DNA of 64,000 nt from Nakamurella sp. A5-74 (lineage in GTDB: Bacteria > Actinomycetota > Actinomycetes > Mycobacteriales > Nakamurellaceae). The stretch's first letter is position 1. Every line of letters begins with the position of its first letter. Of this stretch, positions 6,883-11,761 are shown one piece after another. Under the pieces are notes generated by a model. It did no database searches and had not been told where the DNA came from. It saw nothing but the letters and a program-made list of their open reading frames with translations. The position numbers and the translations under genes are program-made. Location: positions 1,240,001-1,304,000 of the forward strand of contig NZ_CP159218.1 of assembly GCF_040438885.1 (NCBI RefSeq), in the 5' to 3' direction.

Positions 6883-8406
6883 ATGTCCTTCGCCGCTGAC
6901 GCCGACCATGCCGCGGGTGCCGGGCCGGGCCCACAGGACGGACCTGCTCCGTCCGGTCACCTGACCGCCGAGGAGTTCCGGCGGCAGGGCCACCAGGTGA
7001 TCGACTGGATCGCCGAGTACTGGGAATCGGTGGCGGAGCGTCCGGTGTTGTCGCAGGTCGGCCCCGGACAGGTCCGGTCGGCGCTGCCCGACGGTCTGCC
7101 GGAGCAGGGCGAGTCGCTGGAGAACGTGATCGCGGACCTGGACGAGATCCTGTTGCCAGGGATCACCCACTGGCAGCATCCTCGGTTCTTCGCCTACTTC
7201 CCGGCCAACTCGACGCCGGCTTCGGTGCTCGGCGATCTGCTGTCGAGCGGGATCGGCGCCCAGGGCATGCTCTGGGCGACCAGCCCGGCGGTCACCGAGC
7301 TCGAACAGCAGGTGCTCGACTCGTTCGCAGCGGTTCTCGGTCTGCCGCAGGCTTTCTCGTCATCCGGGGCGGGCGGTGGCGTCATCCAGGACACCGCCTC
7401 CACCTCCACCTTCACCGCACTGCTGGCGGCCCTGCACCGGGTCAGCGGGGGCGCCGCACGGGCGGACGGCCTCGGAGCAGGTCGGTACGCGGTCTACGGC
7501 TCGTCGCAGGCGCACTCCTCGCTGCTCAAGGCGGCGATGATGGCCGGGCTCGGCGAGCGATCCCTCCGCAGCTTGCCGGTGGAGCCATTCACCCAGCAGC
7601 TCGACGTGGCCGCGCTGGACGCCGCGATCCGGGCGGATCTGGCGGCCGGCATCACCCCGGTGATGATCCAGGCAGCCGTCGGCACCACCGGGACCGGCGC
7701 GGTTGATCCAGTGCGCGCGATGGGTTCCCTGGCACAGGAGTTCGGCATCTGGCTGCACGTGGACGCGGCCTGGGCGGGTGTCGCAGCGGTCTGCCCGGAG
7801 TTGCGCTGGGTGATCGACGGCGTCGGTGAGTTCGCCGACTCGTTCGTGACCAACCCGCACAAGTGGTTGCTCACCACCTTCGACTGCAGCACCTTCTGGG
7901 TACGCGACCGGTCGGCGCTGATCGGGGCGCTGTCGATCCTGCCCGAATACCTCCGGAACCCGGCCAGCGAGTCCGGGGCGGTGGTCGACTACCGCGATTG
8001 GCACCCCCAGCTCGGCCGGCGGTTCCGCGCCCTCAAGTTGTGGACCGTGTTGCGCAGCTACGGTGTCGCTGGTCTCCAGCAGCACATCCGGGCCGGTGTG
8101 CAGCAGGCCAGGCGGGTCGCCGATCTGGTCCTGCAGGACGAGCAGCTGGTGTTCGCGGCGCCGCCGGTCCTCGGGTTGGTGACGTTCCGACTCGCCGATC
8201 GGCCGGAGCTGGCGCCCGCCGAGGCCGACCGGCTGCTGTTGGCCGCGATGCATGCGGTCAATGCCTCGGGGATCGCCTACTTCAGCCATGCCCAGGTGGA
8301 CGGCCGGGCGGTGATCCGATGGGCGGTCGGCGGCTGGCGGACGACCGTCGACGACGTGGAGATCGCCTGGCAGGCGCTGGCAGCGCAGATCCGGTCTGCG
8401 CTGTAG
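6883..8406 (+). CDS. PLP-dependent group II decarboxylase (aromatic-L-amino-acid decarboxylase family)
   Basis: 507 residues, full length for the DDC/tyrosine decarboxylase family. The PLP Schiff-base lysine is K327 in TNPHKWLL. The conserved cofactor segment HVDAAWAG lies ~70 residues earlier, and the N-terminal HWQHPRFFAYFPANSTPAS motif is typical of group II enzymes. The substrate is likely an aromatic amino acid (Tyr, Trp, Phe or DOPA), giving an amine and CO2, but specificity cannot be read. It ends 28 bp from the convergent sigma/anti-sigma fusion gene. No transporter for antiport is adjacent, so a role in acid resistance is not supported. Confidence 0.9.
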   Translation: MSFAADADHAAGAGPGPQDGPAPSGHLTAEEFRRQGHQVIDWIAEYWESVAERPVLSQVGPGQVRSALPDGLPEQGESLENVIADLDEILLPGITHWQHPRFFAYFPANSTPASVLGDLLSSGIGAQGMLWATSPAVTELEQQVLDSFAAVLGLPQAFSSSGAGGGVIQDTASTSTFTALLAALHRVSGGAARADGLGAGRYAVYGSSQAHSSLLKAAMMAGLGERSLRSLPVEPFTQQLDVAALDAAIRADLAAGITPVMIQAAVGTTGTGAVDPVRAMGSLAQEFGIWLHVDAAWAGVAAVCPELRWVIDGVGEFADSFVTNPHKWLLTTFDCSTFWVRDRSALIGALSILPEYLRNPASESGAVVDYRDWHPQLGRRFRALKLWTVLRSYGVAGLQQHIRAGVQQARRVADLVLQDEQLVFAAPPVLGLVTFRLADRPELAPAEADRLLLAAMHAVNASGIAYFSHAQVDGRAVIRWAVGGWRTTVDDVEIAWQALAAQIRSAL

Positions 8407-8434: not shown

Positions 8435-10651
8435 TCACAGCACGCTGACGACCTCCCCGGAGACCTCGTTGCCCGTCACCGACATCGTGATCGGTCCATT
8501 CCCGGAACCGCCTCCGCCGGTCAGCTTCAAGGTCATCGAATGCTCGCCGTCGGATGCCGCAAGAGCGTCGACCGTGCAGGTCCAGGTCGTCACGTCCTGC
8601 GGGGCACAGCCACTTGCCGCGCCCTCCGCTTCGACCTCGATGCCTGCGGGGAGCGTGACCCTGAGCTGCTGCGCCGGGATCTTGACGCCGGTGCGGTTGA
8701 CGAGGGTGAACGAAGAATCGACAGGAAGGGCGCCGACCAGGGTGACGACCCACGGCGCAGGTCCCCTCACCTCGACGTCCGGTTCCGGAGCCGGCGGGGC
8801 GCTGGTGGTCGGCTCGTCGCTGGTCGTCGTGGTCGTCGTGGTCGTCGTGGTCGTCGTGGTCGTCGTGGTGGTCGGCTCGTCGCTTGTCGTCGTGGTGGTC
8901 GGCTCGTCGCTTGTCGTCGTGGTCGTCGTGGTGGTGGTGGGATCGGGCGTCGAGTCGGTCGTCGGATCGGGTGCGCTGGTGGTCGAGGCGTCAGCCGTGG
9001 TCGGTGCAGGTGGGTTGGTGGGTGCTGCCATCGCCGTGGTTGCGGGAAAGGTGGCCGCCGAGGTCGACGTTCCGGGCGCCGTGGTTCCGGGCCGGGTCGT
9101 CCCCGGCACCGTGGTTGCCGGCACGGTGCTTGCCGGCACGGTGGTCCAGGGAGCCGTCGTTCCGGGCACGGTGGTCCCCGGCACGGTGGTCCCCGGCATG
9201 GTGGTCCCCGGCACCGTCCTCCCCGGGCCGGCAGGACCCGAGTGCTGCGTCGGCGCCACCGAGGCGAACAGCGGCGGCGTGTACTGACCCGGGGCCGGGG
9301 TCGGCCCGCCACTCCAGGTCGGGGTGGCGCCCTGCCCGGTCGTCCCGGTGTCGGCTCCAGTCGTGGAGCCGGCTGTCCAGCGCCCGAACACGGGAAAGCT
9401 GTCGGAGGGGAACGAGCCGGTGACCGTGGTCGCGGGGCCGCCGGCCACGCCAGGGATCACCGCAACGGTGGTGGGCATCCCGTCGAGACCGATGCTGGTC
9501 GAGGTGCTCACGCTGACCCGGGTCGGCAACCCGTTGACGCCGGTGGTGGTGATCGTCGCCCGGCCGGTGGTGCTGCCCGCGGGTGCGGTGGTCGCGAGGG
9601 AGCGGTCGGTCGCGGTGGAGGCGGTCACTTCGTCGGCCGTGGAGACCGCGCCCGCTGCAGGGTCGGTGGTCGCGGCCATCCGGTCGAGGGACGGGTCGAA
9701 CCCAGCGGCGGCCGATTCGTCGGACCCTGCTCCGGCTCGGAGCGCGGGTACCGATGCGGTGACGGCGATCAGCGCGACCGCGACCAGCACCAGCCGCATC
9801 GACCGGGGCCGAGCCGGTACTCGCGTCGCGACGAGCTCGCCGTCATCGTTGGCCCCCCGGGCGGCCTCGAGGTAAGGGATGCCCTGCTCGCCCAGGACGA
9901 CCACGGCGAGGGCGGGGGCCGGATCGTGGGTGAGGGTCGTGAGCATGCGCGCCGCCGTACGGCAACCGTCGCAGCCGGCGAGGTGTTCGTGCACGGACGC
10001 ATCTCTGCCGGCCGCATCCTCAGCGCCGACCGAGGGGCTGCTGATCGCGAGTTGCAGCCGGTCCAGAATCTGGGAGCAGGCCGGATCGTCGAGCTGGTGG
10101 ACCTGACCGGCCAGATAGCCGCGCACCAGACCCTCGCGGGAACGGGCGGCAAGGCCGGTGACGGTGGCGGTCCGCATGCCGAGCAGCGAGGCCACCCCCG
10201 CGTCGGTCTGCCCTTCGACGGCGGTGTGCCACAGCACGCTGCCCCACCGCTCGGGGAGGGCCAGGAACGACCGCCGGACGATGGGGTCGGCCTCGGTTCG
10301 GGTCGTCGACACCGCTGCGTCGCCCGCAGCCTCGTCGAGCTCGGCGGCGATAGCAGCCGGTGCAGCGGTCAGGACGGCGCGCAGGATCTGCAGCCGGAAG
10401 GCGCAGTCGGGCCCGCCCCCGCTCTCCAGCATGCGGCGCGTGTTGTCGAAGGCGCGCTCGGTCACGATGGCAGCCGTCTCGACCGATCCGGTCAGCAGCG
10501 TGGCCAACCGGAGCGCGGCGCCCTCGTGGCGTCGACGCAGGACAGCGAAGGCGGATCCGTCGCCGGCCCGGGCAGCGACGATCAGTTCCGGGTCGCCGGC
10601 GGTGGAGCGGGTGCTGGAACGAGCGCTGTCCGAACGGGAACCGTCGGTCAT
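8435..10651 (-). CDS. membrane-anchored ECF-sigma / anti-sigma / ectodomain fusion
   Basis: 738 residues from the ATG at 10651, which has a GGGAGG Shine-Dalgarno. Residues ~20-95 resemble ECF sigma region 2 (PELIVAARAGDGSAFAVL). Residues ~125-180 resemble region 4 with an HTH (LPERWGSVLWHTAVEGQTDAGVASLLG). H223, C227 and C230 form an HxxxCxxC site as in zf-HC2 anti-sigma domains. Residues ~285-304 are a membrane helix (MRLVLVAVALIAVTASVPAL). A long Thr/Pro-rich segment with VPGTT repeats and poly-Thr runs follows, then a C-terminal ~125-residue all-beta domain with two Cys. Topology should be N-terminus inside, ectodomain outside. Sigma-like proteins with membrane-bound C-terminal extensions are known in actinobacteria. 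No ligand or target promoter is evident. Confidence 0.8.
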   Translation of the reverse strand: MTDGSRSDSARSSTRSTAGDPELIVAARAGDGSAFAVLRRRHEGAALRLATLLTGSVETAAIVTERAFDNTRRMLESGGGPDCAFRLQILRAVLTAAPAAIAAELDEAAGDAAVSTTRTEADPIVRRSFLALPERWGSVLWHTAVEGQTDAGVASLLGMRTATVTGLAARSREGLVRGYLAGQVHQLDDPACSQILDRLQLAISSPSVGAEDAAGRDASVHEHLAGCDGCRTAARMLTTLTHDPAPALAVVVLGEQGIPYLEAARGANDDGELVATRVPARPRSMRLVLVAVALIAVTASVPALRAGAGSDESAAAGFDPSLDRMAATTDPAAGAVSTADEVTASTATDRSLATTAPAGSTTGRATITTTGVNGLPTRVSVSTSTSIGLDGMPTTVAVIPGVAGGPATTVTGSFPSDSFPVFGRWTAGSTTGADTGTTGQGATPTWSGGPTPAPGQYTPPLFASVAPTQHSGPAGPGRTVPGTTMPGTTVPGTTVPGTTAPWTTVPASTVPATTVPGTTRPGTTAPGTSTSAATFPATTAMAAPTNPPAPTTADASTTSAPDPTTDSTPDPTTTTTTTTTSDEPTTTTTSDEPTTTTTTTTTTTTTTTTTSDEPTTSAPPAPEPDVEVRGPAPWVVTLVGALPVDSSFTLVNRTGVKIPAQQLRVTLPAGIEVEAEGAASGCAPQDVTTWTCTVDALAASDGEHSMTLKLTGGGGSGNGPITMSVTGNEVSGEVVSVL
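8815..9235 (-). repeat. low-complexity Thr/Pro stalk repeats inside the sigma fusion gene
   Basis: Two blocks. About 8815-8940 is a run of Thr codons interrupted by SDEPTT units, and about 9075-9235 has roughly ten VPGTT-like pentapeptide units. Both lie in the extracellular stalk. On the opposite strand they read as long Val or Arg runs, which creates spurious open frames. The near-identical 6-15 bp units make copy number likely to vary between strains. Confidence 0.85.
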
Positions 10652-10879
10652 GATGATCTGCCTCCCGGTGCGAACGAGTGGCGAGCGAGCCGGCCCGTCC
10701 GTCGCGTCACGGCAGGTCAGCGGTTCCAATGATGATGCTGAGTGACCTGCACCGCAAAAACGTAGCCCACCAGGCTGACGCAGGCACGAAACTGTCACTC
10801 CCAGTACGGCTGTTCTGTCCGCTTCGCCGCAGTAGCGTCAAATAGTTCACCCGTACGGCCGATTAGAGGTGACCGTCCG

Positions 10880-11761
10880 TCAGCCAACGGCTCCGGTGAT
10901 CACGAATCCGGCGGCGGCCAGCGCGGCGTAGAGGAACTCGATGCGCCCGGTGGCTCCCAGCACGCCGATCAGCTCCGGTCCGCGCGCCCCCCGCAGCACC
11001 CGGCGGATCTGCGTGAGCATCAGCGGCACCACCAGCAGGGCGATCAGCACCCAGGGTCGCCGGAAGCCCACCACGGTGACGGCGACAGCGGCTCCCGTCA
11101 CCATCAGCGCGTAGAGGATCCGGCCGAGGCGATCGCCGGCGAGCACGGCGAGCGTGCGTTTGCCGGCGACGGTGTCGGTGGGGATGTCGCGGAGGTTGTT
11201 CGCCATCAGCAGGGCGCAGGCGAGCAGGCCGATACCCACCGACAGCGCGACGGATCCGAAGGAGATCCGGCCGGCCTGGACGTACGTGGTGCCGTTGACG
11301 GCGAGCAGGCCGAAGAAGACGAACACGAAGATCTCGCCGAGGCCGAGGTAGCCGTACGGGCGGGGACCGCCGGTGTAGAACCAGGCGGCCAGCACCGAGG
11401 CCGCGCCGGGGATCAGCAGCCACCAGCCGGACGTCGCCGCCAGTGCGATACCGGCGATCGCGGCCACGGCGAAGGCGAGGAAGGCGGCGCGCTTGACGAC
11501 GGCGGGCGCTGCGCGGCCGGAACCGACCAGTCGCATCGGACCGACCCGGTCGGCATCGGTACCGCGGATGCCGTCGGAGTAGTCGTTGGCGTAGTTCACG
11601 GCTACCTGCAGGGCCAGGCTCACCACCAGTGCGAGCAGCGCCTTCCACCAGAGGAACTCCCGGAGTGCGGCGGCGACGCCACTGCCGGCGAGCACCGGAG
11701 CGACGGCCGCTGGGAGGGTGCGCGGGCGCGCCGCGGAGAGCCAATCGGACGCAGTAGCCAC
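10880..11761 (-). CDS. menA: 1,4-dihydroxy-2-naphthoate polyprenyltransferase
   Basis: 293 residues, all membrane helices and short loops as in UbiA-superfamily prenyltransferases. The first Asp-rich motif is in NYANDYSDGIRGTDADR near residue 75, followed by GPMRLVGSGRA. The second is in the segment NNLRDIPTDTVAGKRTL near residue 190. It attaches the polyprenyl chain to DHNA in the cytoplasmic membrane, giving demethylmenaquinone. It is the last gene of a menB-menE-menA series with a 16-nt gap after menE. The GTG start has a TAGGGT box 6 nt upstream inside that gap, so an internal leaderless promoter may also serve it. Confidence 0.95.
   Translation of the reverse strand: MATASDWLSAARPRTLPAAVAPVLAGSGVAAALREFLWWKALLALVVSLALQVAVNYANDYSDGIRGTDADRVGPMRLVGSGRAAPAVVKRAAFLAFAVAAIAGIALAATSGWWLLIPGAASVLAAWFYTGGPRPYGYLGLGEIFVFVFFGLLAVNGTTYVQAGRISFGSVALSVGIGLLACALLMANNLRDIPTDTVAGKRTLAVLAGDRLGRILYALMVTGAAVAVTVVGFRRPWVLIALLVVPLMLTQIRRVLRGARGPELIGVLGATGRIEFLYAALAAAGFVITGAVG

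Follow-up and report, generated by a model that had tools for sequence, protein, structure and literature searches.

A membrane-anchored, one-chain ECF sigma-like protein of Nakamurella sp. A5-74 with a locally altered sigma2 contact surface: a candidate pseudo-sigma

Sigma domains that share one chain with a zinc finger and membrane segments have been described for the groups ECF48, ECF52, and ECF53. Members of ECF53 and ECF48 carry a C-terminal zinc finger and one to two transmembrane (TM) helices (PMC8999054), and ECF52, represented by SCO4117 of Streptomyces coelicolor, combines a zinc finger, a TM helix, a proline-rich extension, and a carbohydrate-binding module (PMC5826349). Proteolytic release has been proposed for SCO4117-type sigma factors (PMC5826349, PMC8999054). 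The window analyzed here, a stretch of 64,000 nucleotides from Nakamurella sp. A5-74 (positions 1,240,001 to 1,304,000 of NZ_CP159218.1), encodes a protein that resembles ECF52 in being one actinobacterial chain with a sigma domain, a zinc finger, a TM helix, a proline-rich extension, and an extracytoplasmic domain, and resembles ECF53 and ECF48 in the fusion of zinc finger and TM helix to an ECF sigma. Unlike ECF53 and ECF48, its sigma2 domain is degenerate; unlike ECF52, it has lost sigma2 contact residues, its stalk is very rich in Thr, and its ectodomain is a putative diverged DUF11-like domain rather than a recognized carbohydrate-binding module. The preliminary description of this DNA had regarded the combination of stalk and ectodomain as undescribed. 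That view did not survive, since the same form has been published for ECF52 (SCO4117, PMC5826349) and relatives, most of them with stalk and ectodomain, were found in 127 of the 399 genomes of the order (query, residues 1 to 307); the one-chain design of sigma, anti-sigma, TM, stalk, and ectodomain parts belongs to an already described, widespread family.

The gene, hereafter the window gene, runs on the minus strand from an ATG at 10651 to a stop codon ending at 8435 (Table 1). GC3 lies between 0.78 and 0.95 across all 60-codon blocks of the open reading frame (ORF), with 0.89 to 0.90 in neighboring genes, whereas the in-frame codons preceding the ATG reach only 0.59; the full ORF length is thus under the coding bias of the genome, and the gene starts at 10651. 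An upstream GTG start (10798) was ruled out because this codon bias is missing there. A 730-residue ORF on the opposite strand (8540 to 10732, plus) is an antisense reading with GC1/GC2/GC3 values of 0.86/0.67/0.65, and the plus strand of 8435 to 10651 in the same register yields an unrelated Arg/Gly-rich translation. A frameshift, including a compensated one, or a misassembly behind the odd sigma2 domain was also ruled out, the other two frames giving no match to the family profile. The coordinates and the length of 738 residues in the preliminary description hold, with the frame on the minus strand; sigma-like part, zinc anti-sigma-like part, membrane helix, stalk, and beta ectodomain with two Cys residues were all recovered on the one chain that it had proposed.

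Table 1. Features of the window gene and its product; coordinates are positions in the window.
Feature	Residues	Coordinates	Strand	Basis
ORF: degenerate sigma2, sigma4, zinc anti-sigma domain, TM, Thr/Pro stalk, beta ectodomain	1-738	8435..10651	-	Family profile, codon bias
Shine-Dalgarno-like GGGAGG, about 10 bases upstream of the ATG		10661..10666	-	Sequence
Sigma2-like domain, fold kept	18-111	10319..10600	-	AlphaFold2 pLDDT mostly >90; VIA match
AIVTER segment, core-binding acidic residues lost	61-66	10454..10471	-	143-relative alignment
Region 2.3-2.4, FRLQILRAVLTAAPAAIAAE; Tyr88 to Gln, Arg94 to Leu, basic end lost	85-104	10340..10399	-	143-relative alignment
Sigma4-like domain, motif LPERWGSVLWHT...RSREGL	118-186	10094..10300	-	Conserved columns, AlphaFold2, VIA
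Zinc anti-sigma-like domain; C192 and Hx3Cx2C (9962-9985) kept	190-242	9926..10084	-	Sequence, family columns
Helix equivalent to the post-zinc-domain helix of relatives	245-265	9857..9919	-	AlphaFold2, family comparison
TM helix, single, strong; RPRSMR just before	286-304	9740..9796	-	Hydropathy 2.22
Stalk, Thr/Pro-rich, poly-Thr and PGTTV-type repeats	305-625	8777..9739	-	Composition
Beta-rich ectodomain, Cys682 and Cys692	626-738	8438..8776	-	hhalign, shuffles, AlphaFold2

Against a profile of 123 relatives from which it had been left out, the window protein scored 173.7 bits (E 7.2e-55), which by this comparison places its sigma homology beyond chance. The standard models, by contrast, did not recognize it: the Pfam scan matched no family, neither a sigma nor a response-regulator domain, and there was no match to TIGR02937 (sigma70-ECF; cut-off, 42.9), whereas canonical members reach 59 to 73 bits and all canonical relatives scanned pass. 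The HMM comparison suggested earlier for the sigma part thus came out negative with Pfam and TIGR02937 and positive with the family profile. Among 55 full-length relatives, Pfam found Sigma70_r2 and zf-HC2 in all 55 and Sigma70_r4_2 in 54; DUF11 (PF01345) was matched in 16 of the 55, with CARDB, Big_9, Cadherin-like, and DUF642 as other matches. Open frames of relatives in the order mostly span 500 to 1400 residues, and a further 80 named loci lie in other Actinobacteria, with Nocardioides, Cellulomonas, Saccharopolyspora, Nocardiopsis, Kutzneria, and Streptomyces among the hosts. The same genome encodes a canonical paralogue, L039 (G000:C1:3405528; 1247-residue frame), which passes TIGR02937, shares 36% identity with the window protein over the sigma and zinc domains, and likewise has a stalk and beta ectodomains; unlike the window protein, it matches Sigma70_r2 and zf-HC2 above cut-off and Sigma70_r4_2 just below. 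No close orthologue of the window protein was found in the sets searched, the best match having about 40% identity. Taken by sequence, the window gene is a fast-evolving, lineage-specific ECF52/ECF53-like paralogue, this group likeness being set by the published descriptions of architecture.

AlphaFold2 was used to model residues 1 to 310 with 41 relatives, giving a mean pLDDT of 82.7 and values above 90 for most of the sigma and zinc parts. In VIA-align, residues 18 to 110 superimposed on region 2 of E. coli sigmaE (4lup) with Z 13.6 and an rmsd of 1.7 over 90 residues; a VIA Z near 13 can mean a mere common arrangement in helical domains, and the sequence homology is independent of it and strong. 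Residues 117 to 184 matched region 4 of SigL (3hug_K) with Z 11.1 and an rmsd of 3.2 over 68 residues, and the sigma4 helix-turn-helix is present, as indicated by this match and by 22 of 30 family-conserved columns. By AlphaFold2 and VIA, residues 1 to 180, on whose folds the preliminary description hinged, are predicted to hold those of sigma2 and sigma4. The linker between the two domains is shorter than in relatives. The zinc motif reads H223-x3-C227-x2-C230, with a weak zf-HC2 match (E 0.27), and the TM helix, with RPRSMR before it, is expected to be oriented N-in, C-out. In the stalk of about 320 residues, a count over 318 gives 97 Thr and 44 Pro, including one run of 17 Thr; its coding region at 8777 to 9240 holds runs of the Thr codons ACC and ACG and PGTTV-type repeats and is likely to be unstable in length among strains.

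Searched alone against Pfam, the ectodomain matched no family, DUF11 (PF01345) included. It does align to the post-stalk ectodomain of the family (hhalign probability 79%, E 1.6e-5) and scored 13.0 bits against the family ectodomain profile, compared with at most 8.8 bits for 200 shuffles; by these alignments, it probably derives from the DUF11-like domain of the family and has diverged from it. The structure prediction proposed earlier for the C-terminal domain gave a beta-sandwich, at low confidence (pLDDT 60.5), and left its fold match unclear, also with respect to the carbohydrate-binding module of ECF52, which found no Pfam counterpart here. At a pLDDT of 60, nothing is claimed from the best Foldseek match, a cellulose-binding domain (E 0.019), or from the best VIA match, a protease domain (Z 7.4). 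In a related Nakamurella, the canonical member L044 (G002:C1:4663000-4674000; 2357-residue frame) has its stalk followed by a long tandem series of Ig/DUF11-like repeats; the number of ectodomains therefore varies widely within the genus.

The sigma2 domain departs from the family at defined positions. Region 2.1/2.2 of sigma contacts the beta-prime clamp helices (PMC7406223), and in sigmaH the residues W81, I85, N88, I91, and N92 contact the -10 element, with W81A or I85A crippling transcription (PMC6411747). In the alignment with 143 relatives, the pattern (D/E)-D-x-x-x-(E/D) is replaced in the window protein at residues 61 to 66: positions 61 and 62 are acidic in all 143 relatives and position 66 in 142 of them, where the window protein has Ala, Ile, and Arg. 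Tyr88, present in all 143, is Gln, and the combination of acidic 62, acidic 66, and Tyr88 is kept by 142 of the 143. The aligned stretch 94 to 104 contains 2 to 5 Lys and Arg residues in relatives and none in the window protein. Residues Q88, A92, T95, P98, and A99 are presumably the equivalents of sigmaH W81, I85, N88, I91, and N92, as taken from an AlgU alignment and the common ECF pattern; because Ala also occurs in relatives at position 92 (50/143) and at position 99 (5/143), the weight rests on positions 62, 66, and 88 and on the basic end.

These losses are local to regions 2.2 to 2.4 rather than evenly spread. A tally over the 77 columns conserved in the family gives the window protein 13/14 for region 2.1, 7/14 for regions 2.2 to 2.4, 22/30 for sigma4, and 10/17 for the zinc region; every other one of the 123 members retains at least 10/14 in regions 2.2 to 2.4. 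A search for other degenerate members, sampled within the order and by similarity, added 20 distant paralogues, all of which keep the contact residues and most of which are comparably diverged overall (55 to 60 of the 77 columns). By alignment, then, the residues lost are those that relatives keep for core RNA polymerase (region 2.2) and the -10 element (regions 2.3 to 2.4). Loss of consensus residues is not proof of lost core binding. Even so, the promoter choice that the preliminary description had assigned to this chain is doubtful, regions 2.2 to 2.4 having lost residues common to 142/143 relatives, and the window protein is probably no longer a promoter-choosing sigma. Because acidic 62 and 66, Tyr88, and the basic end are lost while similarly diverged relatives keep them, we consider it fairly likely that the window protein is a membrane-anchored pseudo-sigma which, if functional, would act by protein contacts with a working sigma/anti-sigma partner.

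Either the zinc domain or the sigma-like domain of such a pseudo-sigma would pair with that partner, L039 being the obvious candidate, and the ectodomain would be the outward-facing end. Sigma mimicry of the PhyR type offers a precedent for such pairing: in this alphaproteobacterial protein, a sigma-like fold is thought to bind the anti-sigma factor instead of promoters. PhyR structures were among the VIA fold matches to the window protein. Unlike PhyR, a soluble response regulator, the window protein is a membrane protein with a zinc domain of its own, and Pfam scans found no receiver domain in it. A transmembrane form of PhyR-like control, in which the sigma-like domain of a stalked receptor engages the sigma/anti-sigma module that the canonical paralogue carries, as its decoy or partner, is put forward as a tentative option, somewhat unlikely as it stands. 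Release by a site-1 cut followed by the genome's M50 protease is possible. M50 proteases are encoded elsewhere in the genome, one of them with 443 residues, HELGH (HExxH), and a Rip1/RseP-like layout, so the lack of a site-2 protease gene in the window is no obstacle.

The window gene follows a menA-like UbiA gene (10880 to 11761, minus) on the same strand and converges on a PLP decarboxylase gene (6883 to 8406, plus). In N. lactea, menA and the decarboxylase gene are adjacent, about 60 bp apart, and the window gene is missing; it was also not found after menA in N. aerolata, nor anywhere in the 16 other species of the genus, which have at most one detectable full-length family member each, canonical in the sequences read. 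The genome holds a second degenerate paralogue, L040 (G000:C1:4446493), more degenerate than the window protein with 36/77 conserved columns, and the two degenerate copies appear special to this lineage among the genomes compared. The L040 paralogue (L040:1994-4024; 676 residues from GTG) has eroded sigma2 and sigma4 domains, has lost C192, and shows a long TTAPTP repeat stalk and a two-Cys ectodomain; the genes following it include an ECF42-like sigma factor (L040:5434-6777). A candidate relative of L040 in G013:C2 was discarded, its frame looking unrelated. Placement of the window protein inside or beside the Nakamurella clade was unreliable because of long branches, its own end branch measuring 4.1 changes per column. 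Sigma70_r2 matches number 46 in the 4.75-Mb genome, a high sigma-factor number, and another one-chain protein (L183:283-2472, minus; G000:C1:about 4699-4701 kb) has a sigma4 match above and a sigma2 match below cut-off, joined to a TM helix and a large extracytoplasmic portion, with no zinc motif seen; its gene adjoins a thioredoxin-reductase-like gene.

A relic, left by duplication of a sigma gene and now decaying without a function, would fit the long end branch, the loss of functional residues, and the absence of the gene from all other species of the genus, including from the gap between menA and the decarboxylase gene in N. lactea. We regard this as unlikely, since 738 codons remain open with strong GC3 throughout and a ribosome-binding site, the TM helix, stalk, ectodomain, and zinc ligands are intact, and the losses cluster in regions 2.2 to 2.4 instead of being even. 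A still-active, membrane-released ECF sigma with unusual promoter specificity, in which a signal at the ectodomain leads to proteolysis, release of the N terminus, and transcription, would draw on the retained sigma4 columns, the predicted sigma2 fold, the kept zinc motif, and the Rip1/RseP-like M50 protease, the same model having been proposed for SCO4117 (PMC5826349, PMC8999054); such activity is improbable given that the core-binding acidic residues and the aromatic residue of the -10 pocket, kept even in distant relatives, are now Ile, Arg, and Gln, that region 2.4 has lost its basic end, and that TIGR02937 and the Pfam sigma models fail. It is just as hard to credit that the stalked ectodomain is the working part, in a protein of the surface or one that binds the wall, with the sigma-like part left as a vestigial anchor in the cytoplasm, for although TM helix, 320-residue stalk, and ectodomain are kept and the latter is a predicted beta-sandwich resembling the family's DUF11-like domain, a mere anchor would not need the anti-sigma zinc ligands and the sigma4 core.

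One-chain sigma/anti-sigma receptors are common in Actinobacteria, and SCO4117 alone is reported as characterized in the literature cited. What is new at this locus, as far as the alignments reach, is a real, local departure in the sigma2 contact surface within a known family, and it carries the warning that architecture alone is no sign of a working sigma factor. With its zinc domain and fold retained and the contacts to polymerase and DNA gone, such a paralogue would uncouple sensing and pairing from transcription, so that cross-talk between one-chain sigma proteins could be put to the test.
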